A stretch of DNA of 25,161 nucleotides from a virus, in IMG/VR virus record IMGVR_UViG_3300042143_000037, positions 1 to 25,161 of that record; one strand, 5' to 3'. This document shows positions 425 to 19,953 of the stretch, piece by piece (within the stretch, counting starts at the first letter, position 1; each line of letters starts with the position of its first letter). The notes beneath the pieces were generated by a model. The model was not told the origin of the DNA. It did not search any database and saw only the letters and a program-made list of their open reading frames with translations. The position numbers and the translations under genes are program-made.

Positions 425-991
425 ATGATTAAACATTGAATGAGTAGAACTAGATTTTATAGAATTTATTGCCATATACGGAATAGGTGTAATAGAAAAG
501 AAAATGAGAATTATGACAGCTATTGAGGAAAATGAATAAGAAACAAATGGAATAGTTTTGAAGAATTCAAGAACGATATGTATGAAGAATACAATAAACT
601 ATCAGAGGAAATCGGAGAAAGAAATGTATCAATAGACAGAAAAGAAAATGGTAAAAATTATTGCAAGTATAATTGTAGGTGGATACATATAAATAAACAA
701 CAATCTAATAGAGATATAAATCATTATTTGGAATATGAATGAAAGAAACAAACCATAAGAGAACGAGCAAAAGAAAAATGAATAAGAGAAGAAACACTTA
801 GAAATAGAATACTATACTATGGTATGGATGTAGGAATAGCATTAACAAAGAAGGTATGCAACTATTTTTGAAATCCAAACCCAAAGAAGATACAGTATAA
901 ATGAAAAGAATATACAGTAAAAGAATTACAAAAAGTTATACCATTAAGCAAAAAAACAATTTATAGAAAAATAAATAATTGAGAATTGTAA
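425..991 (+). CDS. HNH/AP2-like homing endonuclease relative
   Basis: This encodes 188 residues. In order it shows an N-terminal SRTRFYRIY..IRNRC segment, YGGKGI near residues 34-39, a W..F..F..DM segment, the SIDRKENGKNY..NCRW block, and a C-terminal EYEGKKQTIRE-x-AKEKGI segment with a helix-turn-helix look (KELQKVIPLSKKTIYRKI). This layout matches the small mobile phage endonuclease and AP2-like family that inserts among phage genes. The CGA codon at 764-766 sits where that family normally has Trp (T..EWA...GI), which is one of the clues to a CGA = Trp reassignment. Its stop overlaps the next ATG by one base (TAATG). Catalytic activity cannot be judged by eye. Confidence 0.8.
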
Positions 992-1176
992 TGTATTGAT
1001 TTTATATTTTCACTTATAGAGTAATGAAACGATTAAGAAAAACATTATTTAAGATTTTGTATTATTTGTTCCCTATACGAACATATAATTTTATTCACAA
1101 CAAACACTTAACATATGACCAGTTAGGTATGTTTTGAATAGAAGATTTATATGGATGAGAAATATACTGGGAATAA
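991..1176 (+). CDS. Small hypothetical protein
   Basis: This encodes 61 residues, starting on the last base of the preceding stop codon (TAATG). An internal ATG at 1024 is an alternative start. The N-terminal two thirds is hydrophobic and basic (a RKTLFKILYYLF segment), and the C-terminus is acidic and aromatic (DLYGGEIYWE). Two CGA codons sit next to hydrophobic residues. I do not recognise the family. The tight coupling to the upstream gene and the proper TAA stop support a real gene. Confidence 0.5.
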
Positions 1177-1200
1177 TTTTTACTCTTTTAATATCATCAA

Positions 1201-1803
1201 ATGCTAGAGCTAAAAGACGATAATTGAAAATTACTTCCAAAGAAAATACAAAAAAGAGTAAATGATTTTATAGAACATTTAAAAAAAATTGGTTGGTTTA
1301 AACCAAGTAAAGATTTAAAAAAATCAGATGTAGATAGACAAGCCAAATTTGTATTAAAATGCTTTTGAATAAAAGCAGAAGTAGAATATAGAAAACTAGA
1401 TACTGATGAAGATTGGGATTTAGCTTGAAAGGTGGCTTGTGCTTGGAATTGGGATTCGGATTGGTCTTCGGCTTGGGTTTCGGTTTGGTTTTCGGCTTCA
1501 GCTAAGGATTCAGTTTTGGTTTCGGCGAGGGAGGCGGCGAGGGAGGCGGCGAAGGAGGCAGCGAGGGTTTCGGCGAGGGAGGCAGCGAGGGTTTCGGCGA
1601 GGGTAGCGGTTAGGACTATTATGGAATTATTAGTAATGGATAACAAAGACTTCAGAGAAGAGTATCCAAATTGAGCGTTCACACAGTTATTTGAATTATG
1701 GAAAATGTGATTATACCCAGTTTGAATTTTGGGAGAGAACAAAAAATTTGTGATATATGCTGACCCTAAGTATTGCTTAAAAGAAAATGGATGGTTTGAA
1801 TAG
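1201..1803 (+). CDS. Hypothetical protein with a Trp/Ala-rich repeat insert
   Basis: This encodes 200 residues in three parts. Residues 1-75 are Lys-rich and soluble. Residues about 78-136 are a low-complexity block that starts with Trp spaced about every four residues (W-x-S-x units) and passes into Ala-Arg-Glu units such as SAREAAREAAKEAARVS. Residues 137-200 are globular again, ending in KENGWFE. The repeat DNA is GC-rich and uses GCG, TCG and AGG codons that are rare elsewhere in the window. Phage and prophage hypotheticals with (W/R)-A-S-(V/A) repeats are known to me, but their role is not. The flanks stay in one frame through the repeat, so the gene looks intact. Long open frames on both strands here are a by-product of the repeat. 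Confidence 0.7.
1430..1615 (+). repeat. GC-rich degenerate tandem repeat within a CDS
   Basis: The plus strand is made of imperfect units rich in G, such as gcggcgagggag and gcgagggtttcg. The unit lengths are multiples of three, so the reading frame is kept. The base composition differs sharply from the AT-rich surroundings. Confidence 0.85.
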
Positions 1804-1897
1804 ATAAAATATTTAAACAATACCATTATCTTATATTATATACCGAATAAATGAAGTAAGGAAACGGTAGAAAATTATTTTATTTTTGATATAAATT

Positions 1898-2146
1898 ATG
1901 TTACGAATAGTTAAATTTACTAAGATTTGAAAGAGTCATTTTTCTAAACAATATCGTATTAAAAATAAATTAAGTAGATATGTAGCCTTGTTGCATAGTC
2001 CTATGTTTTATATTTTTGGTAAAAACCATTGTTGGGTTAATATAAAATATAATTGGAGATACTTTAATTGATTACATATAATTAGATGAAAGATTATTAA
2101 ATACGATAAATGATACAAAATAAATATTTTAGATATTATTATATAA
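1898..2146 (+). CDS. Small basic hypothetical protein
   Basis: This encodes 82 residues rich in Lys, Tyr and Ile, with no motif that I recognise. It starts at ATG after a 94-bp gap and ends with TAA four bases before the next ATG. The gap upstream (1804-1897) holds no ATG-started gene, although the frame of the preceding gene stays open past its TAG to 1914. The composition (many Lys and Tyr, short) is typical of accessory phage genes and could suit nucleic-acid binding, but nothing specific supports that. Confidence 0.5.
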
Positions 2147-2149
2147 TTG

Positions 2150-2713
2150 ATGTCTAATTGATGACCACACCATATAAAATACAAAGAACAATTAGATTTT
2201 TACCATAGTTATATTGGAAATAAATGTAAATATTGATGTTTTTTTTCTAGGATACATCAACAATGATTATCTTATGAAGAGGCAATAAAGCCACAGACAT
2301 TAAAATGAAAACATCTTATAAAAACTATGTATGATGAAAACGGGCGTGTGTGTGTAATATGTTGAGAATATAAGACACGAAATAATTATCATAAAAGTAT
2401 GACAGGATTTATGAATAAAGTATCGCTTTGTAAAGATTGTAGAAAACAACAGAAATTGGAGTATAGAATAAGAACTAATTATAAAAAAGACCACGAATAT
2501 AAAAAACGTAGGAGAACATTAGAAATATGAACTATAATATGATTTCATAAAGAGGTATATATTGATTGAATACCTAGAGAAGATATATACGAAGTAATAA
2601 AATACGAATATAAAAAATGATATATGATAAAATCTAAACGGAATTGATTATTTAAACGGATAGATTTATGAGATAATGGAGACAGACCAAAATTTTATAT
2701 AATAAATGTTTAA
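2150..2713 (+). CDS. Zinc-ribbon protein, endonuclease VII/HNH-like
   Basis: This encodes 187 residues. It has two CxxC pairs, C68-V-I-C71 and C94-K-D-C97, separated by 22 residues, followed by a strongly basic stretch (KKDHEYKKRRR). This resembles the Cys4 zinc-ribbon region of small phage HNH and recombination endonuclease VII-like proteins, where the second pair typically reads C-K-x-C. The C-terminal third (GYMIKSK..GLFK-x-IDL) is a separate domain, possibly DNA binding. Two CGG codons there, and a CGA after EYKT, would read as Trp under the proposed second reassignment. It is one of two endonuclease-like genes in this accessory block. The exact nuclease class is uncertain. Confidence 0.65.
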
Positions 2714-2715
2714 AA

Positions 2716-2898
2716 ATGAAAACAGAAGAATTAAAAGCTCTATGATTGCAAGATACAAATCAATATTATGCTGATTGTAGGATATTTAAACATATAGAAA
2801 GTGGTAGCTTATTATTATTTAAAGAGCTAGTGAAAGATTGACTTCATTATGAAGTAGATAGTTTTAGTAAAGATTTGTTCGAGAATTTGAAGAAGTAA
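2716..2898 (+). CDS. Small hypothetical protein
   Basis: This encodes 60 residues starting two bases after the preceding stop. It is mixed charged and hydrophobic, with a C-terminal DSFSKDLFENLKK helix-like segment. I do not recognise the family. It is the last gene before a 372-bp stretch without an ATG-started gene and before a hairpin terminator, so it probably ends the left-hand transcription unit. Confidence 0.5.
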
Positions 2899-2986
2899 TA
2901 TATCATATAAGTAGTTCACATTTAAAGATATAGTGTGTTAGGTAATTAAGGATGAATTACATAGTAGAAATAAGGTAAAACATATT

Positions 2987-3017
2987 ATAACTATAATTTA
3001 ATATTATGGTTATTTTT
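2987..3017 (+). terminator. Rho-independent terminator of the left gene block
   Basis: An 11-bp inverted repeat (ATAACTATAAT with ATTATGGTTAT, one G-T pair) encloses a 5-base loop and is followed by a run of five T. It lies about 90 bp after the last gene of the left block. The stem is AT-rich, so its strength is uncertain. Confidence 0.55.
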
Positions 3018-3041
3018 CATATAAAAAAAATAGAAAAAGGC

Positions 3042-3069
3042 TTGAAAATATAACATAATATCTTATTAA
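3042..3069 (+). promoter_or_regulatory. Possible promoter before the structured intergenic region
   Basis: TTGAAA and TATTAA are separated by 16 bases just downstream of the hairpin terminator. It would transcribe the predicted structured RNA and the ParB, methylase and terminase genes. AT-rich DNA gives many chance matches, so this is weak. A purine-rich AAAGGAGAAGG follows at 3071-3081 without a start codon at the usual distance. Confidence 0.25.
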
Positions 3070-3181
3070 TAAAGGAGAAGGTTTTATTAAAAGCTATATA
3101 ATAAATACGACTACAAATATTTAGATTAGTAATGATATATTAATATAAGAACTTTTGAACGTAAGACATAGATGAATTTTA

Positions 3182-3251
3182 GGACTGTATATCTATGTTG
3201 TAAACATCACCACCAGATATGAATATTCATTGTCTAGTGGTTGAATAGTCC
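3182..3251 (+). ncRNA. Predicted three-way-junction RNA element
   Basis: The 70-nt stretch is closed by a 7-bp helix (GGACTGT with ATAGTCC). Inside are a 5-bp hairpin with a GTA triloop (ATGTT/AACAT at 3195-3207) and a 9-bp arm with one mismatch (ACCACCAGA at 3209-3217 with TCTAGTGGT at 3233-3241). The apical loop of that arm contains the palindrome ATGAATATTCAT. The size and closing helix recall a tRNA, but there is no T-arm or proper anticodon loop. It sits 20 bp before the ParB-like gene, so it could be a leader regulatory element or a separate small RNA. The call is from hand folding only. Confidence 0.35.
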
Positions 3252-3270
3252 ATACAATTATATATAGTAA

Positions 3271-3756
3271 ATGATAACAAAAGAATATAAGAAGGTTGAA
3301 TTAGAAAAATGTATTCCGTATGGTAGGAATAATAAAACACATTTAAAGAATGTAGACAATATAGTAGATAGTATTAAAGCCAATACCTATTTGTCGCCAA
3401 TAATAATTGACAAGGAGACAAACACTATACTTGTTTGACATTGAAGGAAATTGGCATTAGAAAAACTTTGAGTAAAAGAAGAGTATGTATTGGTTGTGTG
3501 ATGATTAAGTGATAAACAGAAAAAAGATTATAGATTAAGAGATAATAAATTGTCGGAGCTATCAGAACGGAATATTGAGAATATAAAGTTTGAATTAGAT
3601 GAGATATGAGATATTGAATTAAATAATTTGTTTAGTGATTTAGATAAAACAGAAGACATTGATTTTGATGATATCAAATCCAACGAAGACAGAGAGAAAA
3701 AAGAAAACTCAAAAGAAGTTGTATGTCCAATGTGTGAACATAAGTTTAAGATATAA
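3271..3756 (+). CDS. ParB/sulfiredoxin-fold nuclease-like protein
   Basis: This encodes 161 residues. The order of elements fits the ParB-like domain found beside phage DNA methylases: an N-terminal VELEKCIPYGRNN motif, DSIKAN..LSPIIIDK, and the core GHGRKLALEKLG with G56-H57-G58-R59. Next come LRDNKLSEL and an acidic region. The C-terminus is a short zinc-ribbon-like C152-P-M-C155-x-H-K-F. The CGG codon at 3568-3570 (LSE-CGG-NIE) aligns with a position usually held by Trp in this family ('LSEWD..'). The methylase follows after four tandem repeats, the first of which begins inside the last codons of this gene. Its role could be DNA nicking or regulation of the modification gene; neither is shown. 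Confidence 0.85.
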
Positions 3757-3801
3757 ATCCACGATATAAGTTCACGATATAAATTTAAGATATAATCTTT
3801 T
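3750..3801 (+). repeat. Four 13-bp tandem repeats (iteron- or operator-like)
   Basis: GATATAA recurs at 3750, 3763, 3776 and 3789, exactly 13 bp apart. The full units are GATATAAATCCAC, GATATAAGTTCAC, GATATAAATTTAA and GATATAATCTTTT. They lie between the ParB-like gene and the methylase start at 3821, the first unit overlapping the ParB stop codon. A protein-binding array or a methylase operator is possible. Confidence 0.8.
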
Positions 3802-3820
3802 AGTTGTGTAAATATATATA

Positions 3821-4747
3821 ATGCCAGTTCCATATTTAGGTAGCAAAAGAAAATCAGCATTTCAGATTAAGAATGTAATCATTGCACACACAAAAGATAA
3901 AAGTATAAATATTATGGTTGATTTGTTTTGTTGATGATTGGCAATATGAGAAGTGTTTATAAAAGACTGACGGAATGTTATTGCTAATGATAAAAATAAG
4001 TATGTAGTAGCTTTAATAGATAAAACAATAAATGGGTTGCTAGATGAAAATAAATGTTTAGAGTTTGTAAGTAGGGCTACATTTAAAGATATAGTGGATA
4101 ATCCAACCAAGTATGAAGATTGGTATGTATGATATGTTCAGTGTATATGGAGTTTCGGAAACAACCAAAAAGGCTATCTCTTATGAAAAGACCGTGAAGA
4201 GATATATCATAAAGTCTATAATATGATAGTAAATAAAGAAGTAGATGAAACGATTAAAGAACTTATTCCGCAAAAGTATATTGACTGAATATTAAAACAA
4301 TCAAACTGGCACAAAAGGAGAATAGCATTTAGGAAAGTATGGGATGTACTAAAAGACAAAAAAGGTGGACATCAATTAAAAAGCCTACAAAGCTTAGAAG
4401 GTTTAGAAAATTTACAAAGCTTGGAAAGATTGGAAAGTTTACAAAGATTAGAAAGTTTACAAATAACAGCTAAAAGTTACGAAGAGGTTATAATACCAAG
4501 TAATGCGATAGTCTATTGCGACCCACCGTATAAATGAACCGCAGAATATAGTGAATGAATGTTTGACTATACTAAATTCCGACAATATATAAGAACATTA
4601 TCGAAAACAAACCAAGTATTCATATCAGAATATACAGCCCCAGACGATTTCAAGGCAATATACGAGTTTCCACAAAAAAGTACTTTGTCAATAGGCAATC
4701 AATCCCATAACAACCAGCCTAATGAGAAAGTATTTACTAAAATATAA
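3821..4747 (+). CDS. D12-class (Dam-type) adenine-N6 DNA methyltransferase
   Basis: This encodes 308 residues. The protein is expected to methylate adenine in DNA using S-adenosylmethionine. Motifs visible are the N-terminal YLGSKRK, the AdoMet site DLFCGGLAIG near residues 33-42 (three of its four glycines are TGA, so the motif only exists under the altered code), NVIANDKN, and catalytic DPPY at 234-237. Residues about 187-215 are a Leu-Gln-Ser-Leu-Glu repeat, which also occurs in phage Dam proteins that I know. The C-terminal block F..F-CGA-QYIRTLSK..VFISEY.APDDF matches the phage family, where the CGA position is Trp. It may protect phage DNA from host restriction. It follows the ParB-like gene and precedes the terminase genes. 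Confidence 0.95.
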
Positions 4748-4770
4748 ATATTTAATTTTTAATAAACAAA

Positions 4771-5211
4771 ATGCCTAGATGAGATAATTTCAGATGAAAA
4801 AAACCGACTAATACGCCTAAAAGACCCAGTACTCATTGAGTAGTAATTGAGAGAGTAACGCAAGTAGGTAGACTTATTATACAATGATATCAAAGGTATG
4901 AGATAGTGGCTATATGACAAGAGAAATGGGACTTATCAGCCAGTCAAATAGATGATTACATTAAGAGAGCAAGAGAGCGAATAAAAGCCAAGAACGACAA
5001 AACCATAGGGGAGGAGATAGAGGAGACAGCGGCTCAAATTATGGATGTATACCAATGAGCTAGGAGAGATAAGAAATGGGGAGATGCTAGTAGGGCATTA
5101 AAGCTAAAAATGGAATTAAGAGGATTAGAGGCACCGAAGAAGATGATAATACAGGAGATAGACCCAGAGGATGAGGAGCTGGTACAACAATTATTAATGG
5201 ACAATGAATAA
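4771..5211 (+). CDS. terS: Terminase small subunit
   Basis: This encodes 146 residues and lies directly before the large terminase. The N-terminus is basic and Gly/Pro-rich. A helix-turn-helix-like region follows (LIIQGYQRYEIVAIGQEKWDLSASQIDDYIKRARERI), and then helices ending in the acidic tail EIDPEDEELVQQLLMDNE. This layout is usual for small terminases, which recognise the packaging site and recruit the large subunit. The call rests on position and the HTH plus helical pattern, not on a conserved signature. A five-codon ATG frame at 5204 overlaps its stop. Confidence 0.75.
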
Positions 5212-5245
5212 GACTGTGTAGAATTATTTACTAAATATATTGTGT

Positions 5246-6700
5246 ATGGATGGAGAATTGCTATATAAAGTGTTGAATAAAAAAGAGACTAGGGTAAGAT
5301 ACCTAGAGTTTGATTTTTTTAGATGGTGTTTATATTATTTTCCTGGTTCTTTTCATTATCCAAAGACAGCCCCTTTCCATAAAGATTGGTGTAAGATTAT
5401 AGCAACCGATAATAATATATATTTAGAATGATTTAGGGAATGTGCGAAGACTATGATTGTGGGTTTATTATATGATTTATGGTGTATAGTTTATAAGAAG
5501 AGGAGATTTATTTGTTGTTTTAGTTATGAATGAAAAACAGCTAATGATTATCTATTTAAAATCTCTGTCCAGTTACAGACCAATTATAGATTAATTAATG
5601 ATTACTGACAACTATTTTATTGAGACAATAGTGAAAAGAAATCACAAAAAAAAACAGTATCGGAATTTATAACAGAGAATGATATAAAAGTTAAGGCGTT
5701 TTCCATGTGAATGTCTATGAGATGACAAGTATTTATGAGTAAGGATTGATTACTAAGACCGGACTCGTTATTGTTAGATGATATAGATGTTATCAATAGT
5801 GTAGGTAATAAGACCACAATAGACAAGAATTTTAGATTTTTAGAGGATGAAGTATTTTGATGATTAGCTGATTACTGCCAGATAAGGATATTATGAAATG
5901 TTATTAAAGAGGATTGAATTAATCCTAGATTAAAGGATAAGTTTAAAGACAATAAAAAACGACACATAAAATCACAATCAATATATGATAAGAAATGAGA
6001 GATAGTATGGAGTAGATATACAGAGACAGACAAAGAGGCGTTGGAATATAACAAAGACATAAAAGACGTCAAGAAATATAAAATATCATTAGAGAGTAAA
6101 AAACGTGATTTATGACCAATCTCATTCAATCAAAACTATCTTTTAGTGCCTTATATAAACTGACAACAAATTATATCAAGGGATATGATAAGATATGACA
6201 AAGAATGTGTTAGTTATGGGTTTGATTATATACAGATATGAGTAGACCCTGCTATTAGTGAAAAACAGTGAAGTGATAGATTTGCTATAACTGTTACTTG
6301 ATTTGATTGACCTAAAAGATATGTATTACAGTGTGTTAAACTAGAATGACAAGAAAAGAATATTAAGAGAGCTAGTAAAGTTGTTAAATGATTATACGAT
6401 AAATGGAACGCTGACAGGGTAGCGGTTGAAACTGTCGCATATCAAGCAGTATTAAAAACTATATTTAAAGATATGTGAATGGCGGTGGATGAAATAAAAA
6501 CTAGTAGGGATAAGGTAACAAGATTATTAGAATATCAAAGTATGTTTGAAGATGGGCTGATATATTTTAATCCTGATTTAACAAGTGATTTAGTGGAGGA
6601 GTTGTTAGTATTCCCTAACTGAGAATATGATGACTTAATGGATAGTATGTTATTCAGTTTTCATTGAAGAGTAAATAAATTCTTTTTATCTAGTATATAG
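5246..6700 (+). CDS. terL: Terminase large subunit (packaging ATPase-nuclease)
   Basis: This encodes 484 residues. The ATPase half has a Walker A-like GFRECAKT near residues 62-69, of the R..AKT type common in terminases, and Walker B LLLDDID near 174-180. The RNase H-like nuclease half has three acidic clusters: GVDPAIS near 331-337, VAVETVA near 391-397, and EYDDLMDS near 459-466. Together they pump DNA into the prohead and cut it. ATG at 5246 is chosen; TTG at 5240 is an alternative, and a TAG at 5219 closes the frame upstream. The CGA at 5960-5962 lies where this family tends to have Trp. The length is normal for the family. Confidence 0.95.
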
Positions 6701-6702
6701 TG

Positions 6703-6960
6703 ATGACAAAGACTAACAAAGAATTAAAATCTGAGCTTTTTAAGTTAAAAATACAGAAGTCTAAATGATGGTGTCCTGAGAGGCACAGGAATTTAGAGAT
6801 AATGGCTTGTGAGAGAGAGATATTAATTTTTATAAGTAAATGAACACAAAGGATGGATGATGTTAAGCCTATAACAGCCTACAATTTATTTGACTTTTGG
6901 AAGTACATACAAGATATAAAAGATGACTTAAATATAAATACCAGTAATTATGATGGATAA
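6703..6960 (+). CDS. Small hypothetical protein after the terminase
   Basis: This encodes 85 residues starting two bases after the terminase stop. It is Lys-rich at the N-terminus, with a W-C-P-E-R-H segment and then a helical, aromatic region (AYNLFDFWKYIQDIKDDL). I do not recognise the family. Tight spacing with terL suggests the same transcript. It lies between terminase and portal genes, a place where phages often carry small unknown genes. Confidence 0.5.
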
Positions 6961-6988
6961 GCTTTTAAATTATTAATTAAATAAAACA

Positions 6989-7360: not shown

Positions 7361-7374
7361 TAGTTATTCATAAC

Positions 7375-7411
7375 AAAAATATAGGTTATTAATTTAATCT
7401 ATATTTTTTTT
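7375..7411 (+). terminator. Rho-independent terminator before the head genes
   Basis: A 10-bp perfect inverted repeat (AAAAATATAG with CTATATTTTT) with a 14-base loop runs into a tract of T residues to 7411. It lies 14 bp after the last gene of the packaging block and 12 bp before the late promoter, so it separates two transcription units. Confidence 0.7.
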
Positions 7412-7423
7412 AAACAAAAAAAC

Positions 7424-7450
7424 TTGTATTTAAAGAATTATGATTATAAT
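7424..7450 (+). promoter_or_regulatory. Late promoter copy 1 (head operon)
   Basis: TTGTAT and TATAAT are separated by 15 bases, with TG four bases upstream of the -10. The whole block (CTTGTATTTAAA at 7423-7434 and TGATTATAAT at 7441-7450) recurs with identical spacing at 21071-21098, before the tail fibre. The 15-base spacer is short for a sigma-70 promoter, so an alternative or phage-modified polymerase is possible. It lies 51 bp before the portal ATG. Confidence 0.65.
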
Positions 7451-7458
7451 ATATTATA

Positions 7459-7480: not shown

Positions 7481-7501
7481 TTTACAACTAGAACACAAGA
7501 T

Positions 7502-8770
7502 ATGCAACTAAACTTATTTTGACATTCTCTGCAGATTTTCAAGAAAGAGCCACCTATAATAAGTAAAAAGTCAGCTTGAGGGTATGTATGAAATTATAAT
7601 TATTCTTCATTATCTCAATTAATAGATTGAGGGGTTGTAATATCATTACAAACTTTTTATGATTTATACAAAAAGAACCCCGACATAAGACAATCAGTAA
7701 GAAAGATAGCCAATAGTGTGTCAAGGAACGGTATTTATTTAGAAGACAATGATTGAAAAGTGATAGAAGATAGAGAATTGCAAGATGTAGTATTATGATA
7801 TTTAAAAACCCCTACATTTCTTAACTTCAAAATAGATTTGTTTAGGAACTATTTATTAAGTTGAGAAGTATATATAACCCCTATGAGTAATCTTAAATGA
7901 GAGGTGGTATGATTTGAGGTATTAGATAGTAGAAGTATGACAAAGATAGTAGATATATATTGAAACATAAAGAAATATAAACAAGCAAATAGTAAAGGTG
8001 CAACAAAAGAATATAAAGCAGAAGATATATGCTACTTCCAATTAGAGACAGATATAAACAACTCTAATTTATGAATGTGATTATTGCATTGAGTAATCTG
8101 GGATGCTCTAAGTGATTTGGAGGCGACAAAGACTAATTATATGTTTTATGAAAATAATGCTATCCCTAATTCAATATTATTATTAGAAAACACATTGTCG
8201 GACAAAGAAATGATGTTAGCAAAAGAGCAATTTAATACACAATATAAAGGGACAGGGAACGCCCATAAAATGTTAATAGGTGGTTGAGTCAAAGATATAA
8301 AGACGTTATCGGTTACTCCTAGAGATATGGAGTTCATAAACCAAAGAAAGCTAACAACAGAAAAGATAAGTGCGGTGTTTTGAGTTCCTAAATCAATATT
8401 AGGTTATGTAGATAATGTAAACTATGCGAATGCCAAAGAGTTAAGAAAAGAATATATTGAGTGAACTATTATTCCATATCAAAACGATTTTGAAAACATA
8501 CTCAATACTGTTGCTAGTAAATTCTTACCTTTGATATATGAGAATTACTGGATTAGATGTGATTGAGAGCAAGTGGACGAAACAGAAATAATATACGAAA
8601 ACCAAAGAAAAGATATTGCATTATGAGTTATAAGTATAAACGAAGCTAGATTAGACAGATGACTAGAAGTAAGTAAAGATGAAAACGCAGACAAATTAAT
8701 GATTAATAGGAATATGGTATTATTAGAAGACATAACACTAGATGCAACTTTAAATCCTAATGAGCAATAG
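7502..8770 (+). CDS. Portal protein, HK97 family
   Basis: This encodes 422 residues. The portal ring forms the DNA entry vertex of the capsid and binds the terminase during packaging. Recognisable features are the early SLQTFYDLYKKNPDIRQSVRKIANSV-type region, a central LSGEVYITP stretch, the LDSRSM and GLLHGVIWD segments, and the ISAVFGVPKSILGY motif typical of phage_portal proteins (Pfam PF04860 type). The C-terminus is a flexible tail. Start and stop are clear, and the MuF-type gene follows after 3 bases. The leader carries the late promoter and the 11-bp repeat. The length is normal for the family. Confidence 0.93.
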
Positions 8771-8773
8771 TAT

Positions 8774-9613
8774 ATGTGAGTTTCATTAAATTATAGGAAT
8801 ATAGCAAGAAATGAAGTAAAGATATATACTATTATTATTAAATCATTTAAGAGACAGTTTAAATTCTTAATAGAAAATCTTGAGGACCTATACACTAATT
8901 ATCAAGCAAAGATAGAGCTAGAATATTGATACTTACAAAGACCTAGACCCGATATATACGAATGAAATATGTATAAATGATGGGGTAGTGAGATAAGTAG
9001 TGAGCCCTTAGATTGATTTTGGAGAGAGATGTGAATATATGATATGATAGAAGATGTAAAGCCACAAGTAAGATGAGCGGTAGAGAAATGATATAAAAAG
9101 ATGTATAGATTATTTGAAGACGATATGAGAAGGAATGGGTTCAGTTATCAAGAGGCGGTACCCATAGATTATATGAATAAGTTTTGAGAGCTAAATCTTA
9201 GTAATTATAAATGAAGTATATCACTAACTACTAAGAATTGAGTGATTGAGATATTAAAGAATTGATTAGATAATAATTTATGAATATGAGATATAGCCAA
9301 ACAGATAACGGAGCTTAACAGCACATTATTTAACAAAGCTAGAGCGAAGCTTATAGCAACGACAGAGGTAGGAAGAGCTTATGAGTATTGAAATAATTAC
9401 CCTATGCAACAGTTAAACAATGTATGAATTAATATCATAAAAAAACGACAAACAGTAAATGATAGCAGAGTAAGACCAGAACATATGGAAAATGAGCTAG
9501 AATGACGACAACCACTAAATTATATATACCCTGCTACTGACTGTGATATACCGCCAGCCGCTCCGAATTGTCGTTGTACGGTATTATATGAGATAGAGTG
9601 AGCTAATAAATAA
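8774..9613 (+). CDS. Head morphogenesis protein (SPP1 gp7 / MuF-like)
   Basis: This encodes 279 residues and begins ATG-TGA (Met-Gly). The C-terminal half carries the MuF signature: ARAKLIATTEVGRAYEYG, then a K-CGA-QTVNDSRVRPEH segment near residues 223-236, and the terminal PPAAPNCRC. In this family the residue before 'T..D.RVR..H' is usually Trp, matching CGA at 9446-9448. The CGT at 9572-9574 supplies the conserved Arg of NCRC. These proteins bind the portal and are packaged in or near the capsid. The gene sits between portal and protease, its usual place. Confidence 0.9.
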
Positions 9614-9639: not shown

Positions 9640-11142
9640 ATGAACATTAAATCAAAGTTAGTAAAAAACAAAAATTTTTTCCAAATCGTATGTGAGCAAA
9701 AATGAATAAAAGACTTAACAAACGAAGCATGAGAGATTATTGGTGTTGAGATTGAATGATACGCCTCTACTAAAGATAAGGATAGAGTAAACGACATAGT
9801 AGAGCCAACCGCATTTAAAGATGCCATAGATTTGTATATGACAAACCCTGTTGTATTGTTACAACACGATGTCGGGAAACCTATAGGTATTGTTACAGAA
9901 GCTAGTATAAGACCAGAGGGGCTTTATATTAAAGCAAAGATTACACAAGATGTTGATGGTATATTTTCAGCATTAAAGAATAAGGTTCTTAGAGCGTTCT
10001 CTATATGATACAGGGTAAAAGATTATGTAATTCAAGAAGTAAAGGACTGAGAGGGTTTTGTTACTTGATATGAAACTATTATCAAATCATTAGAACGATA
10101 TGAAACATCTGTAATATCTATACCTGCAAATGCTTATGCACTTATGAAATCAATGAATAGTTGTGTAGAGGTAAAAGAATTAGAGGCATCAGAGGCATCA
10201 GAGGTAAAGGATTGAGAAGAGGTGATAGAAGAGGTTGTAGAAATCACAGAGGTGATAGAAGAGGAAAAAGAATTATGAGCAATTGAATGATGAGTGATAA
10301 ATAATATACCCACAGAAGAAGAACAAGTAATTCTTGCAAATTGAGAGCAATGAGAACTAGGAACTTCTGACGAAGAAATAGAGGAAGAAGAAAATGAAAC
10401 CATAGAGGAAAAAGAAATAGCAGTGATAGAGAAAAAAGCATTAAGTAAAGAAGACACTATAGAGATGAAAATCACTAATAAATTGATAGCTGAAAAATGA
10501 ATAGAGGAATGAAGTAATGAGCACATATATGTATGTTGATTATATAATACAGAGTTTATATATAATCATTACAAATTTTGAGATAATGGATTTGATATAT
10601 ATTATAGAAGATGATATAGTAACAATGATTGAGAGATTAGTCTTACTTGAGAAGATGTAGAAGTAGAGACTACCACTCAATGGACAGACACTACTAAATT
10701 ATTTAAAGACCAATTAATTAAAGATGCTAATACTACAAATATGGAAGTTAAGTCTAATGAAATCAAAGAGTCTGAAAATCCTAATGAAATTGTAGGAGAT
10801 GATGTCCAAAAGGACGTTGTTGATGAATGAAAAGAATTAGAGAAGATGGCTAGAAAGAATGTAGAGAAGTTTATAAATGCGGAAATTGATAATAAGATTA
10901 AAGCATTTAATGAAACTATTGAAGCAAAACTTACTCTGAAAAATGAGGAAGTAGAAAAGATGTCAAAGAGGTTTGACTGAACGTTAGAGGTTATCAAGTC
11001 TTTACTAGAATATATTGAAGAACTAGATAATAAAGTGTCTAATACAGTTATTAAGTCTTGATTTGCTTTTGAAAAGCCAGTTGCTAAGAAAAAAGCTACT
11101 GCTTATTGAAATCTTGCGAATAAAGTTAAAGAGCTTATTTAA
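9640..11142 (+). CDS. Prohead protease with a C-terminal scaffold-like region
   Basis: This encodes 500 residues, much longer than a lone HK97 protease of roughly 200. Residues 1-170 are the serine protease: GYASTKDKDRVNDIVEPTAF, VLLQHDVGKPIG with the likely catalytic His near 75, AFSIGY with Ser near 120, and ETSVISIPAN near 154-163. Residues about 175-270 are extremely Glu-rich. A small domain follows (HIYVCGLYNTEFIYNHYKFG, then YYRRGYS). The last 130 residues are a long helical, coiled-coil-like region, as expected for an internal scaffold. The protein would therefore shape the prohead and then cut itself and the capsid protein. It precedes the capsid gene by 37 bp. Confidence 0.9.
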
Positions 11143-11179: not shown

Positions 11180-12298
11180 ATGAATAAAAAACTATTAGAA
11201 ACCATCATCAAATCAAAGAAATTGGTTGATGAAAGCTTCGATGAAGTTGCTTTTAGAGGAGCAAACGAAGTAAAATCAGAAGTGGAAATTGATACCAAAG
11301 CCAATGAGGTTATGCACCCTACTAATACTGGATTTGGAAAAGAACTTATTCCAACTGATGTGTATACTGACCCTATGTTAGATTCAGTACCTGAATATTC
11401 TAAGTTATTACCTATGCTACCTTGAAATCAAGGAAACAATATGCCTATATCCGCTAAGGTTCCTGTTATAGGAGAGGCTGATATGTTCTATGGTAATACT
11501 ACTTGGACTACTGGTTCCCCAATACCTGATAATGCAGTAGATAATGGACCAGCTACATCTGACATTACTATAACACAAGGTCAATTCATCTTAACTGTTG
11601 CTTTGTCTAAAAGAGAATTAAATTATTCTCCTGAGCAAATAGAAAGTATAGTTAGAGAAAGAATAAATAGAAGTGCAGCTAGAACTATTGACGCCGTTAT
11701 CTTGAATGCAGATACTGCAACATCAGGTAATGTCAATACTTCTGGAACTCCTGCTTCAACTTTGTATTATATGCAACAAGATGCAGGTATTAGAGAAATT
11801 GCTATCTCTGACGCTAATACTCACGATGTATGAGCACTTACAGAGGCTGATTTCTTGTCATTGTTATCTAAATTAGATGCAGGGTACCAATCAGATTTAA
11901 CAAACTTATTGTATGTTATGCCGTCTAACGTGTATAATCAAGCAATGTTGTTGGATGCAGTATTGACTATAGATAAATTCTGACCTAAGGCTACATTCTC
12001 TAGTTGAGTATTAGCAAAAGCTTTTGGAATTGATATATTAGTTGCAAGAGACCGACCAGCTTTGGCTTTGGCTACTGGAAAAGTACACGCAACTACAGGT
12101 AACGATTTCGGTTCATTTGGACTTATCTACAAACCTGCTATACAATATGGATTTGGACAACCACTTGAAATAGATGTATGGAGAGTACCAGGAAAATGAG
12201 TACAATTAATTGCTACATTTGAATTTGGATTTGCTATTGCTTATAAAAAAGCAGGTCTAGGAAACACTTGTGCAGTTGCTATTAATGTAACTATGTAA
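11180..12298 (+). CDS. Major capsid protein, HK97 fold
   Basis: This encodes 372 residues. An N-terminal charged region of about 50 residues may act as a delta domain or be cleaved. The body follows the HK97 major capsid pattern: GKELIPTDVYTDPMLDSVPEYS, ISAKVPVIGEADMFYG, ITQGQFILTVALSKRELNYS, RTIDAVILNAD, and a C-terminal LIATFEFGFAIAYKKAGLG. By hand count, glycine is written with GGN 24 times and TGA about 5 times, the reverse of the tape measure gene. This suggests codon selection for high expression. The GC-rich terminator follows 8 bp after the stop. Confidence 0.92.
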
Positions 12299-12771: not shown

Positions 12772-12785
12772 AATAAATATTATTA

Positions 12786-13403
12786 ATGGCATTCACTAAT
12801 TACGCTACATTAGCACAAGTGAAAGATTATCTATGAATAACCGATACATTAAATGACAGCCTAATTCAGCATTTATTAAATAGTTCATATTATCTATTAA
12901 ATAAGTTAATATGAGTTGCTACATTGAATGGTTGAAGTGTTATTGAGGAGCTTAATTTAGGGGATATATATAAATGAGTATGATATTATTGATTTAATAT
13001 ATATCTTAAGAATAAGCCTGTATCTGCTATAACAAAGATAAATTGAACTGCTTATACTTGAGTTAAATGAACAGATTATATGATAACTTATGACAGGAAA
13101 CTAACAATAAAAGATTTAGACAATTATATAGTAAGTCTTAATTTTGATGTATTTGAAATAGAGTATACAGCTTGATATAATAGAGATGATAGTTGAGTTG
13201 ATACGCTACCTGATGATATAAAACTTATGCAGATGATGTTAGTTAGCTGATTATATAATAAAAAAGGTAATGAGTGAATAAACCAATATAGATTATGAGA
13301 TGAAAGTATATCGTTTTGAAGTCAAAATAATATGGGTGCTGATGACATGTATTTTTCATTTAAGACTATGTTAGATAAATATAAAAGTTTTTATTTGCCT
13401 TAA
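12786..13403 (+). CDS. Head-tail connector (adaptor) protein, gp6-like
   Basis: This encodes 205 residues. It starts with a TLAQVKDYLGITDTLNDSLI helix pattern, which is characteristic of phage gp6/gp15-type adaptors ('..vk.yl.i..t..d..i..ll..a..'). It continues with a beta region (LGDIYKGVGYYGFNIYLKNK) and ends with helices containing LPDDIKLMQMMLVSGLYNKK. These proteins form the ring under the portal. The gene order after the capsid gene fits. Many of its Gly codons are TGA. Confidence 0.8.
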
Positions 13404-13409
13404 TAGGAA

Positions 13410-13712
13410 ATGTCTATATTATATAACAAAGTTGCGGTAGTATATAAATATGAAAGGAATAGTAATATGGTAGCCAGTTATACAGCCCTAGAAAGTCTAA
13501 AATGTAACATTCAGCCAGTATGAGTAAGGGACTGATTTGATTGAGCTATTATGTTTGAAATGAAAAAACTATATACTGATTATAGCGGGTTGAGTGTTTG
13601 AGATAAATTGGTTATTGATTGAATAACTTATATTGTAAAAACATTCGATACACGACAATGAAAAATGAGAGAATATTATAAAGCATTTATTCAGAAATCA
13701 GAATGACAATAA
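13410..13712 (+). CDS. Probable head-closure (stopper) protein
   Basis: This encodes 100 residues with a compact beta-rich pattern: a DYSGLSVGDKLVIDGITYIVK core followed by T-CGA-QGKMREYYKAFI. In head-closure proteins that I know, the corresponding position tends to be Trp ('vkgvadw.g....hy'), matching CGA at 13653-13655. The size and location between adaptor and neck genes support the call. Its stop overlaps the next ATG by one base (TAATG). Confidence 0.7.
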
Positions 13713-14056
13713 TGGGCTTTCAAATAACTTGAGATATAAAGAAATTCTTTAATGTAAAATCTAATAGTAATGTAGCAATAGAGTTGGCATTGACCCAGAT
13801 TTGATTAATGGTACAAAACCAAGCAAAGATAAATGCGCCTTATGATAAATGAACATTAAGGAGAAGTATAATAACTGATTTTAAACAAATAAAGAGCTGA
13901 TTAGTGGTTGTTTGAAGTCAGGTGGCTTATGCCAGAAGAAGAGAGTTCGAGAACTACAAAAACCCACACACAAAATATTATTTAAAAAGATGATATGAAG
14001 ACAATAGAGATAGGATATTAAAGATAGTGATAGAGCAATTTAAACTTAAATTATAA
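13712..14056 (+). CDS. Neck/tail-completion protein, HK97 gp10-like
   Basis: This encodes 114 residues. The pattern 'IGLMVQNQAKINAPYDKGTLRRSI..VVGSQVAYARRREFEN' is diagnostic of the HK97 gp10-type family ('..aP.dTG.Lr.Si.......v.....YA...E.G'). These proteins take part in joining head and tail. It overlaps the previous stop by one base and is followed 3 bp later by the tail terminator candidate. Confidence 0.88.
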
Positions 14057-14058
14057 AT

Positions 14059-14499
14059 ATGGCTACATACTCATTTAAGGAGATAGGAGACACAATATAT
14101 ACAGAGATGTTGAAGATAAAAAATACTGACACAAGAGTAGGGGCGGTCTATAATTATGATATAAAAATATTAGATTGAATATCACTGCCAGCAATTATCA
14201 TTACTCCAAGTAATGGTACCGAAAATTATTTAGATAGTTGTAGTTATCAATCTACTATAAACTTTACAGTTAGATTGATAGACAGAATACAGGATTGAAT
14301 ACAGCAGATAGAAGACAATATGAGAGTGGTTGCTGATATGATAATGACTAGGTTAAAAGATATATGAACTATTAGTTGGACAAATGATAATTGAATGACT
14401 GTTAAATTAGAGTTTGATTACATACGATGATTTGCAGACACTCAAGAACCATTAAGAGTATTTGAGGTTGAGTGTAAATTTGTGTCTATTGAGAATTAA
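14059..14499 (+). CDS. Probable tail terminator protein
   Basis: This encodes 146 residues with an N-terminal helix (SFKEIGDTIYTEMLKI), a strand reading SLPAIIITPSNG, then NFTVRLIDRIQDGIQQIEDN, and a final strand region FEVECKFVSIEN. This is the usual order for tail terminators ('P.i.v......E......r.....f.v.i'). It caps the tail tube before head joining. Its position before the tail tube gene agrees. The call is by pattern and place. Confidence 0.7.
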
Positions 14500-14521
14500 T
14501 TTTATAAAATAATTTATTATT

Positions 14522-14743
14522 ATGGCAACAAAAGGTAAGAGATGCACAGAGACAATAAATGAAACAATAAATGAAGCGACAATAGATAATAGAAAAGAAT
14601 TAATGGAGGTAGAGCTTGAGCAATCGTGAGAACTTAAAAAATTTAGTTTTCCTAAACAGTGATTAACTATACAAGCCAAGAATATAGAGGAGGCAAACAG
14701 GAAAATGAAAGTTATTATTGAGTACAGAAAAAAAACAATTTAA
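14522..14743 (+). CDS. Small hypothetical protein before the tail tube gene
   Basis: This encodes 73 residues, with an N-terminal KGKRCTETINETINEATIDN segment, then Glu- and Lys-rich helices and a beta-like centre (KKFSFPKQGLTIQAKNIEEA). Similar short proteins with 'f.....g.t..A.n..EA' occur next to tail genes in other phages, but I cannot name the family. It ends 35 bp before the tail tube ATG. Confidence 0.55.
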
Positions 14744-14778
14744 GTTAAATCTAATTTTAATTACTAAATTTTATTAAA

Positions 14779-15978
14779 ATGCATGAATTTATAGGAAGAA
14801 AATCAGCCATCTGATTAGGAAAAGAGGCAGTAAAAGGTACAGCAGTTGCCGCTAATGTGCGAATACCAAAAACAAGTGGGGTATTAAATCCGTCTTTTGA
14901 GGAGGCAGTTGATGATAGTTGATATTGAGTTATTGATGAAATATATGACTCACAAACAACTAAAAACTTCTCTAAGATAACATTAAATGGTATTGCTAGA
15001 GATGACTTTATAGGTTATTTATTATTAGGTGCGTTAGGTAGTTATAATGCCGTACAATGTATAACATTACCAACCCCTGCTGGATGAACTCCTGCTAGAG
15101 GAGACACAGTATATGTATGAACAATATGAGCCGAAACTTGGATATGAGAGATTAAAAAAATCTTATCATTATGAACGGTAGCCACTACTTATTATTTTGT
15201 ATCTACAACAAGCGGAACCTTAGCACATTGAGATACAGTAACTGACGGTACTTGGACAGCTACCGCTTGAGTAACTGCTACAGCAGGTGTTAAATGACAC
15301 TTTTTTAGTAGAGCCAACGACAATAACCATCAAACATTTACAGTATACGATGACGACCCAATAGGAGCCGTTAAATCCACATACGCTATGATAAACACTT
15401 TTGAATTAAGTTGTGAGGTAGCAGATTATGTAAAATTTACTGCAGAATTACGAGGTAAAAAAATGAGTACAGCTAGTGCATTAAGTCCTGCTTACTCAGA
15501 CGACAACAAATTTGTTGCCAGTATGGCTCAAGTATTCTTTGCTACTAATGAAGCGGGGTTAAATTGAGCTACTGCACAATGTATGCAGAATTTTAGATTA
15601 TCAATTAATAAAAACTTGGTTGATATCCAATGTTTTGGGACAGATGATATTAATAGTCTACATAATCAACAATTCACTACTGAATGAGATTTTGAAGCAT
15701 TATATAGTGATACTGATTTAAGAAGTTTTGTAATTAATAGTGAAAAAAAGGCTTGCAGATTTGAGATAATCAATTCACAAGCCACAGCACTAGTTGCTAG
15801 CCAAATATTTCCTTCAATGTTTGTAGATTTGGCAAAGGTTGGTTTCAAAGAATGGACAAAAACTGATGCTAATAATGATATAGTAAAGCAAACACTAGGT
15901 TATACTTGACAATACGACAATTCTACAAGTATGCAAATAGAAGTATTGTTATTAAATGATAATTGAATTTGATATTAG
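14779..15978 (+). CDS. Major tail tube protein
   Basis: This encodes 399 residues. The start GRKSAIGLGKEAVKGTAVAA and the following PKTSGVLNPSFEEAVDDS are typical of large tail tube proteins ('G..t..Gta.....W.p...f.f.p......d.s..G'). The CGA at 14860-14862 stands where that family has Trp. A Gly/Thr-rich stretch at about residues 100-175 looks like an inserted beta domain. The protein polymerises into the tube. After its TAG the same frame stays open to 16128 (49 codons), and the stop region is part of a small repeat. The gene lies just before the chaperone and tape measure, as usual. Confidence 0.85.
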
Positions 15979-15991
15979 AACTTGATATTAG
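15969..15991 (+). repeat. 10-bp direct repeat spanning the tail tube stop codon
   Basis: TTGATATTAG occurs at 15969-15978, ending in the stop codon, and again at 15982-15991, a 13-base step. It is short and may reflect a small duplication after the stop. Confidence 0.6.
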
Positions 15992-16096
15992 AGGCTATTA
16001 GTGATTGTGATCATATAAAAATATTATTAAGAAGTCAGTTTAGTCATAACTGAAATCAAGAGCTTTCATATTTTAATACTTTAAAAACAGAGCAAA

Positions 16097-16396
16097 ATGA
16101 CACAAGAGACTTTATCAGTAGTAATTAATGGGACAGAAAAAGAGGTAGCATTTAAAGACGTTTATACAAGATGAATTGATAGAAAATTTAACGAAATTTT
16201 ATTTCAATGAGTTGAAGCTATAACTAACTCAGAATGAAAATCGGATTTTAAAATAAATCCTGACAATATGCAGAAAGCAAACGACTATATCGTAGAGGCT
16301 ATGACAAATCTTAATAGTAAAGAATTAGATTGATTGTCAGTGTCAGATTATAACGCAATTCTAGAAAAGGTTGTAGCCTTAAAAAATCCCAGTTAA
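16097..16396 (+). CDS. Tail assembly chaperone (gpG-like)
   Basis: This encodes 99 residues: a beta start (LSVVINGTEKEVAFKDVYTR), then helices and VSDYNAILEKVVALKNPS at the end. The place between tail tube and tape measure and the length match gpG-type chaperones, which coat the tape measure before tail assembly. Its end overlaps a second frame that has no start codon, so the usual ribosomal frameshift to a longer product is expected. The slip window is 16381-16394. Confidence 0.8.
16381..16394 (+). promoter_or_regulatory. Programmed frameshift site
   Basis: The sequence is AAAAAATCCCAGTT, read in the zero frame as AAA AAT CCC AGT TAA. CCC followed by A allows a +1 slip (CCC to CCA). Six A also allow a -2 slip. 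A -1 slip at the heptamer AAAAAAT would stop after about 10 codons and is not productive. Confidence 0.65.
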
Positions 16397-16631
16397 TTAT
16401 GATGATATATTAAAGAAATTTACTAAAACATTAAGAACGCAAACTTGATTATCAAAAGAGCATAGAGATTATATATTAATTAAAGAATTATATAAATGTA
16501 GTCCTAGTGAATTGGATAACCAAGATGAAAATATACTAACATTACATTATACTATGTTAATGGAGGAAAGGAAACACGAAGCACTAGAAATCGAAAGGGA
16601 AAAACAAAGGAATTCATCTCATAAAAAATAA
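16383..16631 (+). CDS. Frameshift extension of the tail chaperone (gpGT-like)
   Basis: This frame is open from 16383 to TAA at 16629-16631 and has no ATG, GTG or TTG near its beginning. After a +1 slip at CCC-A (16388-16391), translation continues as V-N-Y-D-D-I-L-K-K-F for 79 residues. A -2 slip on the preceding A run would also enter this frame. The product would be about 177 residues long. The extension is Lys/Glu-rich and helical, like other T-domains that bind the tape measure. It ends 4 bp before the tape measure ATG. This is inferred from frame structure and from the general phage pattern of chaperone frameshifting. Confidence 0.75.
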
Positions 16632-16635
16632 TATA

Positions 16636-19104
16636 ATGGGTTCAAGCGACTATAATATTAAGTTAGTGTTAGAGGCTCAAAATAAGATGAGCTGAGAGCT
16701 AGACAAGGTAACCAAACAGATGTCTTGACTAGAAAAAACCGCTCAGTCATCTTTTTCTACATTATCAAAATGATTAACTTGATTATGAATAGTCGCTTGA
16801 TTTAAAAATATTGCTGGATGAACAATAACTCTTGCTTGAAACTTACAACAAGCAACCGTTGCATTTACTACAATGCTTTGAAGTTGAGAAAAGGCTCAAG
16901 ATATGCTTATAAAGTTATCAGATTTTGCTAAAAAGACCCCTTTTGAATTGACAGGTATTAGAGACACAGCTAAACAATTATTGGCTATATGAGTAACGAC
17001 TGGTGATATAATACCTACATTAAAAAGTTTATGAGATGTTTCAGCTTGATTAAGTGTACCTATTGAAAGATTGGCACTTAATTTTTGACAAGTAAAATCA
17101 CAAGGAAAACTCACAGGAAGAGAACTTAGAGATTTTTCTCTAGCTTGAGTACCTTTAATAGCAGAACTTGCTAAGAATTTATGAGTTGCAGAAAGTGCAA
17201 TAGCTGGTATGACATCAGCAGGGAAAATATGATTTGCAGAAGTAGAAGAGGCATTTAGGACTATGTCTAGTGAATGAGGGAAATTTGAGAACCTTATGGA
17301 TGCACAAAGTAAAACATTTCAAGGGACAGTATCAAATATGAAAGACAGTATTTCTCAATTATGAGAGACTATATGATGAATATTCTTACCGTGATTGACT
17401 AGTTTAGTTAATGCAATTGTCCCTGTTATAGGCGCAATATGAGAATGGGCAAAAGAAAATCAAGAAGTAGTCAAAAATATAATAATAGCAACAGGTGCAT
17501 TGGTATGATTAATATGAGTAGTTACTATATTAATACCTCTAGTTAAAACTTTATGGCTGGTTATATCATCTAACCCTATATGATTATTAATAACAGTAGT
17601 ATACTGATTATATATATGATTGAATTTATTAAATAGTGTTATAAAGACTAGCGACCAATTAATACAACACAATAAAAATGAGATATTAGCTTTAAATAAA
17701 GCATATCAAAGCTGAACCATAGACCAAAAGAAATATGAGGAAGAGCTAAGAAGATTAAAGATAGAAATGGTTGAAAGCAAATTAAAAGCTAATTGATTAG
17801 GGAACGAAATGAAATGAAATCTTAAAACAGCATTAAGTGCTATTACTAGCCCTATAAAATGAGCAAAACAAGCTTTTCAAGATTTTAAAACAATAATGGT
17901 GGCAGTAAAGACTTGATTAATAAATTTACGATGACAAGTAAAGGCTTTTATTATTAATTTGATTAATTCAAATCCTGCATTAAAAGCTTTTGCAGACAAT
18001 TTTATGATAGTATTTTGATGAATATTAAAGTATGTTAATATAGCGGTCGGTGGTATAGTAAATTGAATATCTAAGTTGAAATCAGCATTATGATTATGAT
18101 GAGATAAAATAAAGGCGTCTGACATAGTAGATAGCTGATGATTTGATAATATGTTCCCTTGATTAGACATTTCATTAAAAGAGACAAAAGATAAGATAAG
18201 CACAATATCCGCACCTGTAAACGAAGTATGAGGAGTAGTGAAAGATTTAGCAAAAGATTTTTGAGACGCCTTTGATTATATTAATGAATGATTAGATGAA
18301 AGTATTTGAAAAATAGAATGATACCAAAAAGAGATAGAACAAATACAAGAGAGTATGAAAGAATTATGAGTAGGTGAAACAAAAGATGTTGCTAGTGAAT
18401 ATGTTAAGATAAAAGAAGAGATAGCAAAAATTAATGAAGAGTTAAATGTTGGCTGAGTATCACAAGAAAAACAACTAGAATTAATACAGCAAAGGAAATT
18501 AGCACAAGATGCAATGGCTTCGGCTTTTAGCTGATTAAGTGAAGAGGAGAGACTATTATTAAATGATAGAATAGCGTACCAAGAAAAATATAATGAAATG
18601 AACTCTATTGAAAAGATTAAAGAAGATTACGCTATAAAGAAAGAGGAGTTACAGGCGGAGCTTGATGTTAAAATAGCATTAATGGATGCAGAATTTGAAA
18701 AGATTAAACAATTAGAGGCAGACAAAATAAAACTAGAAAATGATTGGATGGTTAAATTAAGATTAGACAATACTGAACAAATAACTATGTATAATTCTTT
18801 AATCCAAAAAGCAAGAGAATTAGCAGCTGCAAGAGCTAGAGCCTGAATGTGAGGAGTGTCTTGAGCTAGGGCATTATGATGACCTGTAAATGCTTGAGAG
18901 ACTTATCTAGTATGAGAGAGATGACCAGAATTATTTGTCCCTAGTACCAAATGAAGTATAACCCCTAATAATGCTATAACTAATAATAACTGAATATCAA
19001 TCAATCTTAGTTGAATAACTGTAAAAACAGAGGCAGATATAGAGATGATAACTGATGAAATAATTAGGAAGATAAAATTAGAAAAACAATTCTGAATAGT
19101 TTAA
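16636..19104 (+). CDS. Tape measure protein
   Basis: This encodes 822 residues. The N-terminal region (LVLEAQNKMSGELDKVTKQM) is helical. Residues about 60-250 carry the conserved tape measure domain (FTTMLGSGEKAQDMLIKLSDFAKKTPFE and RDFSLAGVPLIAELAKNL). Hydrophobic, membrane-like segments lie near 275-335. Coiled-coil regions lie near 550-735. The C-terminus has GGPVNAGETYLVGERGPELF near 747-766, a common ending of tape measures. By hand count it uses TGA about 63 times for Gly, against about 19 GGN. Under the usual 1.5 angstrom per residue rule, the tail would be roughly 120 nm long. Confidence 0.95.
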
Positions 19105-19122
19105 ATCATAAATATAAAATAA

Positions 19123-19953
19123 ATGTTTAATTGAGTACTATTTAATAGTTATCCATTATGAAGCTGACTTGCTCCTATATGAGCAGGAGAGCAAGATTTA
19201 TTTGTATTTAATTGATATTCATTAAACGATTGTGTAAATACTAGGGTAAAAATGAGTAACCACGATGATTTAAGTAGTCTGGATTTTATTACTTATGAAG
19301 CACCTAGAACCGATTGAGGTTGAGTATTAGACAAATTTTATAGAAAAAAAACAATAAATATTAATATCTCACTTACTGCTAACACAGTAACAGCCCTAGA
19401 CAATCTTATAGATGACTTCAAATATAATATTAGTGGGACTGAATGAAAACTTGAAATAACAATATGATGAATAGTTAGACAACGAAAAGCTACATTAACT
19501 AAATGTGATTTTAATAGAAAATATCATAATATTACATTTATACAAGACATATCACTTACTTTTGTTGCTACTAACCCACATTGATATAATAAAAACAATG
19601 ATAGTAACAATTATTATGATATGACTTGAGATTTTGATGAAGAAATAATATACCAAGGTACAGCTCAATCTTATCCTAAAATCTATTTTATATTTTGAGT
19701 TGTTTCCGATTTGGAAAATACTGCTATAAGTGTAAACTGAATAGCTTTGAATATAGAAGAGACAATAACTACTTGAGATATTTTGTTGGTTGATTGAGAA
19801 GAAAAAGAGGTAACTCTAAATTGAACGGCTATTAAATATTCTTGACCTTTTCCTATATTCAATAAATGAGTTAATCCAATTTCATTTATATTTTCTTCTT
19901 GAGCTACTCTAAATTGTGATATTACTATAATAAATAAGAGGAAATACCTTTAA
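19123..19953 (+). CDS. Distal tail protein (Dit-like)
   Basis: This encodes 276 residues. Features are an N-terminal beta region, APRTDGGGVLDKFYRKKTININISL (the pattern 'R.G..v..r..g.r.i.i.g.i' of Dit proteins), then GGIVRQ-x-KATLTKCDFNRKYHN and FIQDISLTFVATNPHGY. A C-terminal galectin-like half follows (GDFDEEIIYQGTAQSYPKIY). The CGA at 19483-19485 is at a position that is usually aromatic. Dit forms the hub ring between the tube and the tip. It follows the tape measure, as in most siphoviruses. Confidence 0.87.

Follow-up and report, generated by a model that had tools for sequence, protein, structure and literature searches.

We analyzed codon meaning in a tailed-phage genome from IMG/VR (record IMGVR_UViG_3300042143_000037); the record spans 25,161 bases and is referred to in full as the window. 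Comparison with a clade of related phages indicates that the codons CGA and CGG (together, CGR) are read as tryptophan (Trp) rather than arginine (Arg) in the window and across the clade, a reading to which we assign a probability of about 97% on the basis of sequence comparison. TGA also scored best with a nonstandard meaning, glycine (Gly), making the code of the window doubly altered, as a preliminary description of this DNA had proposed. Arg is written as AGA, AGG, CGT, or CGC, and genes stop at TAA or TAG.

Under the standard code, almost no structural gene in the window is open over its full length. Reading TGA as Gly yields an unbroken series of genes on the + strand. The GC (guanine plus cytosine) content of the window is approximately 0.23 to 0.34 per kilobase. 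The 29 open reading frames (ORFs) contain 366 TGA, 52 TGG, 22 CGA, and 5 CGG codons, together with 6 CGT, 1 CGC, 172 AGA, and 55 AGG codons; the 28 complete ORFs stop at TAA (23) or TAG (5). The preliminary description had cited eight codons as CGA or CGG facing Trp or an aromatic residue. All eight are CGA or CGG, in frame, and inside ORFs that are read with TGA as Gly, and it was also correct in placing a CGT within an NCRC motif at 9572 to 9574.

Relatives were gathered by portal-based scans of viral contigs, which returned approximately 25, most of them at 45 to 99% portal identity; searches started from the terminase and from the tape measure protein returned few. We added to the clade one contig, L031, that is binned in a metagenome-assembled genome (MAG) from goat colon. 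The clade contigs come from an Antarctic lake, goat colon, and other metagenomes, with L005 and L006 being the Antarctic lake metagenome records (PMC8542988). TGA is needed as a sense codon in the clade records, except in the distant high-GC L012 to L014 and the weak matches L002 and L030. Homologues were seeded from the window genes, and shared genes were aligned with CGR masked. Codon meaning was assigned with a Codetta-like profile score, for which near-identical records were left out and CGR was masked everywhere; 19 of the 27 CGR sites in the window have clade homologues. The tree used for parsimony was built from six core proteins.

Over these 19 sites, Trp scored +56.5 bits, compared to -33.7 for Arg and -8.0 for the next best residue. 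CGA taken alone (17 scored sites) gave +44.9 bits for Trp and -30.6 for Arg, and CGG gave +11.6 bits for Trp. For TGA, Gly scored +580 bits over 296 sites, with serine next at -163. Control codons scored as expected (TGG as Trp, AGA, AGG, and CGT as Arg, TGA as Gly, and TTT as phenylalanine), which bears out the earlier statements that TGG is also used for Trp and that AGA, AGG, and CGT are used for Arg. Across the clade, CGA scored best as Trp in all 26 genomes with scored sites, and CGG did so in 19 of 20; CGT, CGC, AGA, and AGG kept the meaning Arg. These scores argue against the alternative that CGA and CGG still encode Arg, with the coincidences with Trp arising by chance or by misalignment at variable sites.

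The same alternative fares no better in individual alignment columns. Considering all 92 clade-wide CGR columns, 62 held Trp without Arg, 7 held Arg without Trp, and 23 held neither; the most common partner residue was Trp in 41 columns, phenylalanine in 14, and Arg in only 2. Among CGT columns, 47 of 88 held Arg. Parsimony assigned 75 changes from TGG to CGR, 28 from CGR to TGG, 1 from an Arg codon to CGR, and none from CGR to an Arg codon; tie-breaking biases the direction of change and has much less effect on the sum of 103 TGG/CGR changes (compared to 1 Arg/CGR change). The conserved genes of G016 (5.6 kb) contain 15 CGR and 3 TGG codons. One subclade (L017 to L020) has a GC content of 0.36 to 0.37, few TGA codons, and a preference for AGG over AGA as the Arg codon, and CGA is still Trp there.

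Within the window, aligning relatives and scoring the facing residues, as the preliminary description had recommended, placed unambiguous Trp (TGG) opposite 12 of the 19 sites and Arg opposite none in the masked alignments. Every unambiguous relative carries Trp at 5960 in the terminase (11 of 11), 9446 and 9506 in MuF (13 of 13 and 5 of 5), 13653 in the head protein (11 of 11), 14425 in a structural protein (9 of 9), and 14860 in the tail protein (12 of 12). In the relatives these columns consist of TGG and CGR only, with 10, 11, 19, 6, 7, and 2 CGR codons, respectively, and such columns, spread over terminase, MuF, head, tail, and minor structural proteins, are difficult to reconcile with Arg. 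TGG occupies position 9506 in the distant high-GC relatives L012 and L013. Trp predominates at 3568 in the ParB-like protein (7 Trp and 1 aspartate among 8 unambiguous relatives) and at 19483 in Dit (6 Trp, 4 isoleucine, and 1 valine). At 4580 in the methylase, one relative has Trp and one has aspartate. For the eight cited codons, Trp as the facing residue held fully for 5960, 9446, 13653, and 14860, by majority for 3568 and 19483, and in one of two relatives for 4580; the eighth, 764, is without a homologue in the clade alignment, and there the PHROG 3377 profile prefers Trp by 4.9 bits. Sites 9506, 14425, and 12053 support Trp in addition to those eight, although the last, in the major capsid protein, faces phenylalanine in 8 relatives and Trp in 3 and was counted as Trp support. 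Site 15451 in the tail protein faces methionine in 10 relatives and Trp, leucine, and threonine in 1 each.

To compare the window with standard-code phage proteins at large, we scanned its proteins against PHROGs twice, with CGA and CGG translated as Trp and then as Arg. Translation as Trp raised the match of MuF to PHROG 2468 from 50.7 to 61.6 bits (+10.9), that of the ParB-like protein from 105.1 to 111.7 (+6.6), that of the protease from 95.8 to 100.2 (+4.4), that of Dit from 54.7 to 56.6, and that of the terminase from 197.1 to 198.6. The tail protein matched PHROG 290 at 72.3 bits as Trp and fell under the reporting limit as Arg, and the PHROG 939 match of the small head protein was present as Trp and gone as Arg. 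CGA4580 in the methylase (PHROG 56) gained 2.3 bits as Trp.

The close relative L001, which is 95.5% identical to the window over 10.4 kb, was aligned to it codon by codon. CGG and TGG are swapped in both directions: CGG at 3568 in the window is TGG in L001, and TGG at 4307 is CGG. The window CGG at 3971 is CGA in L001, and the CGA at 10096 is CTA (leucine). This codon alignment contains no exchange of CGA or CGG with any Arg codon.

Several observations weigh against reading CGA and CGG as Trp. CGG alone has only two scored sites in the window, and 7 of the 19 sites face neither Trp nor Arg. Trp is not supported at 10096 in the protease, where all relatives have leucine, or at 17929 in the tape measure protein, a variable site with lysine, isoleucine, or valine; the five CGA codons of the tail-fibre-like gene also lend Trp no support, but they stand at variable sites that favor neither reading. 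In the HNH endonuclease, CGG479 scores 2.9 bits better as Arg, opposite to CGA764 in the same gene, and CGG3971 in the methylase scores 1.9 bits better as Arg against PHROG 56. Either the HNH gene was perhaps acquired recently from a genome with the standard code, or position 479 is simply variable. The preference of CGG479 and the lack of Trp facing 17929, 22471, 23164, 23548, and 23557 are what can be said for retention of Arg; the alignments already refute that alternative, and we consider its probability negligible.

Sequence conservation is also compatible with some ambiguous decoding, which counts against a clean reassignment. A sense codon under reassignment can go through a stage of ambiguity, in which the phage would tolerate a mixture of Trp and Arg, and at a few variable sites (7 columns) Arg does occur in one or several relatives. 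However, CGA occurs at otherwise strictly Trp positions of the terminase, MuF, and tail proteins, and no change from CGR to an Arg codon was inferred; both findings speak against a mixture. We regard ambiguous decoding as improbable and prefer the reading of CGA and CGG as Trp.

The genes of the window (Table 1) follow the order HNH endonuclease, ParB-like protein, D12 adenine methyltransferase, terminase, portal, MuF, head protease, major capsid protein, head-tail connectors, tail protein, tape measure, Dit, and tail-fibre-like protein. Terminase, portal, MuF, protease, capsid, tape measure, and Dit thus occur in the order expected of a member of the Caudoviricetes that has an HK97-type head and a tape-measure tail. 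In the tail-fibre-like protein, a module of approximately 110 residues (YGYRLQA...DYFRIE...SPGFPK) is duplicated. The D12 methylase contains a leucine-rich repeat stretch at approximately 4400 to 4490 (LQSLEGLENLQSLERLESLQ...); the gene is longer in L001 (317 compared to 308 residues in the alignment), perhaps through repeat number.

Table 1. Genes of the window that are discussed in the text, with the positions of their CGA and CGG codons.
Gene	Position	Strand	Codons and remarks
HNH endonuclease (PHROG 3377)	425..991	+	CGG at 479, CGA at 764 (IRE[CGA]AKEKG)
ParB-like	3271..3756	+	CGG at 3568 (SE[CGG]); TGG there in L001, L004, L005
D12 class N6-adenine methyltransferase	3821..4747	+	CGG at 3971, CGA at 4580; TGG at 4307 is CGG in L001
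Terminase large subunit (PHROG 38)	5240..6700	+	CGA at 5960
Portal protein	7502..8770	+	No CGA or CGG; served to gather the clade
MuF-like head morphogenesis protein (Pfam PF04233)	8774..9613	+	CGA at 9446, 9506; CGT (Arg) at 9572
Head maturation protease	9640..11142	+	CGA at 10096
Major capsid protein	11180..12298	+	CGA at 12053
Head protein, head-closure-like (PHROG 939)	13410..13712	+	CGA at 13653
Conserved structural protein without PHROG match	14059..14499	+	CGA at 14425
Tail protein (PHROG 290)	14779..15978	+	CGA at 14860, 15451
Tape measure protein	16636..19104	+	CGA at 17929
Distal tail protein Dit (PHROG 33)	19123..19953	+	CGA at 19483
Tail-fibre-like protein	21127..23709	+	Five CGA, at 22471, 23164, 23272, 23548, 23557; all variable sites

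Neither the window nor L001 yielded a tRNA gene, and the same was true of 23 other clade records (4 to 64 kb), although these contigs may be incomplete. Because phages that use CGR carry no detectable tRNA gene, host tRNAs would have to decode CGA, CGG, and TGA. The phage is very probably translated by a host, most likely a member of the Absconditabacterales, whose own tRNAs insert Trp at CGA and CGG and Gly at TGA. In the mechanism we propose, the phage genes would have evolved under this host code, with TGG, CGG, and CGA being synonymous Trp codons that drift into one another, and decoding would proceed via a host tRNA-Trp (UCG and CCG anticodons) and a host tRNA-Gly (UCA).

Alternatively, the phage could recode a host in which CGA encodes Arg by means of its own tRNA-Trp(UCG), in the manner of stop-recoding phages with suppressor tRNAs. 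Recoding of stop codons by phage-borne tRNAs is known, phage RSA-ATP1 carries a tRNA-Gly(UCA) (PMC13059738), and the window may be incomplete. Against this stand the tRNA-free records listed above; the only tRNA matches over the cutoff in the clade scan come from G028, an outgroup in which CGA and CGG are hardly used. We consider a phage-encoded Trp tRNA very unlikely and favor decoding by the host. The G028 matches, L096 (G028:5492-5573) and L100 (G028:6218-6307), lie on the - strand and are called by ARAGORN at default settings in neither case; the anticodon loop of L096 is oversized and looks as though it held a short insert. G028 (L117 to L119, 45.7 kb) is the most distant clade member, with a GC content of approximately 0.20 over 12.75 kb in L028. 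It uses TGA as Gly, yet it contains just 11 CGA or CGG codons in approximately 13,000, as if these were unassigned or avoided in its host.

The preliminary description had mentioned a report of CGA and CGG reassignment in Absconditabacterales, and such a report exists: for Absconditabacteria, Shulgina and Eddy (2021) inferred that CGA and CGG encode Trp and that TGA encodes Gly, and they found tRNAs consistent with the reassignment (PMC8629427). Since Absconditabacteria are the only described bacteria with both changes, the matching code makes Absconditabacterales (Candidate division SR1), a group of very small parasitic bacteria, the likely hosts. A host in Gracilibacteria (BD1-5) is conceivable but improbable. 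TGA as Gly is common to both groups, and CGG as Trp was inferred for some Gracilibacteria (PMC8629427). CGA, the more common of the two codons here (22 of 27), is reported as Trp only for Absconditabacteria and goes unmentioned for Gracilibacteria in that study, and the score of the window CGA sites does not agree with translation table 25, in which CGA is Arg. Narrowing the host to Absconditabacterales from codon use is reasonable but indirect, the link being the match between the codes. We take the Absconditabacterales code to be NCBI table 37; a literature search on table 37 found nothing relevant.

A portal protein query against genome contigs gave no matches. Querying with the portal alignment gave one confident clade match, L031, in the goat-colon MAG RGIG2002. 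We rejected RGIG2002 as a host: sampled stretches flanking its tRNA genes mostly fit the standard code, with TGA adding little in most, and the MAG has a tRNA-Arg(ACG). L031, a phage contig with TGA as Gly, is probably misbinned there, a likely contamination of the public genome record.

The code is already known for the hosts, whereas in the literature searched its use by a clade of viruses seems not to have been described; the window is a new, viral member of this known code. It resembles the Absconditabacterales code (PMC8629427) in its three reassignments, its retained Arg codons, its low GC content, and the predominance of CGA over CGG. That code, however, was reported for cellular genomes rather than a phage clade, and the CGR to TGG excess of G016 is above that of any host described there. 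The code-25 phages and prophages described for Absconditabacteria and Gracilibacteria (PMC10746230), like RSA-ATP1 (PMC13059738), are tailed, use TGA as Gly throughout, and have been matched to this group of hosts. Unlike here, their genes were called with table 25 (CGA and CGG as Arg), CGA is unmentioned in the main texts, and RSA-ATP1 has four tRNA genes. Scheffersomyces segobiensis virus, a totivirus of yeasts with CUG as serine, also depends on a host with a reassigned sense codon, but it has eliminated all but one CUG (PMC3628385), whereas in the phage clade the reassigned codons are used freely and occur where Trp is conserved. Phages that recode TAG or TGA in standard-code hosts share the property that their genes are unreadable under the standard code; their code differs from that of the host and they bring suppressor tRNAs, in contrast to a known host code and no tRNA carried. 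We found no sense-codon reassignment in phages in the literature searched, which is weak evidence given that subscription papers were outside its scope.

We lean slightly toward a broader reading, in which a whole phage lineage, diverged to approximately 45 to 60% protein identity, has evolved with two reassignments (stop to Gly, Arg to Trp), with the reassigned sense codons free to occur at conserved sites and in places exceeding TGG. Such use of a reassigned sense codon, in place of avoidance, would be the first demonstrated for any virus clade, and the lineage would be code-locked to Absconditabacterales. If so, CGA at invariant Trp positions would be a marker of the host. CGA/CGG usage may provide a simple way to tell Absconditabacterales phages from Gracilibacteria phages. 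Annotation of such phages with table 25 puts Arg at conserved Trp positions. The clade also supports, independently and from the viral side, a code change that is otherwise based on rare codons from a small number of uncultured genomes, and, in contrast to the codon-purging yeast totivirus, it indicates that viruses can fully adopt a sense-codon reassignment.

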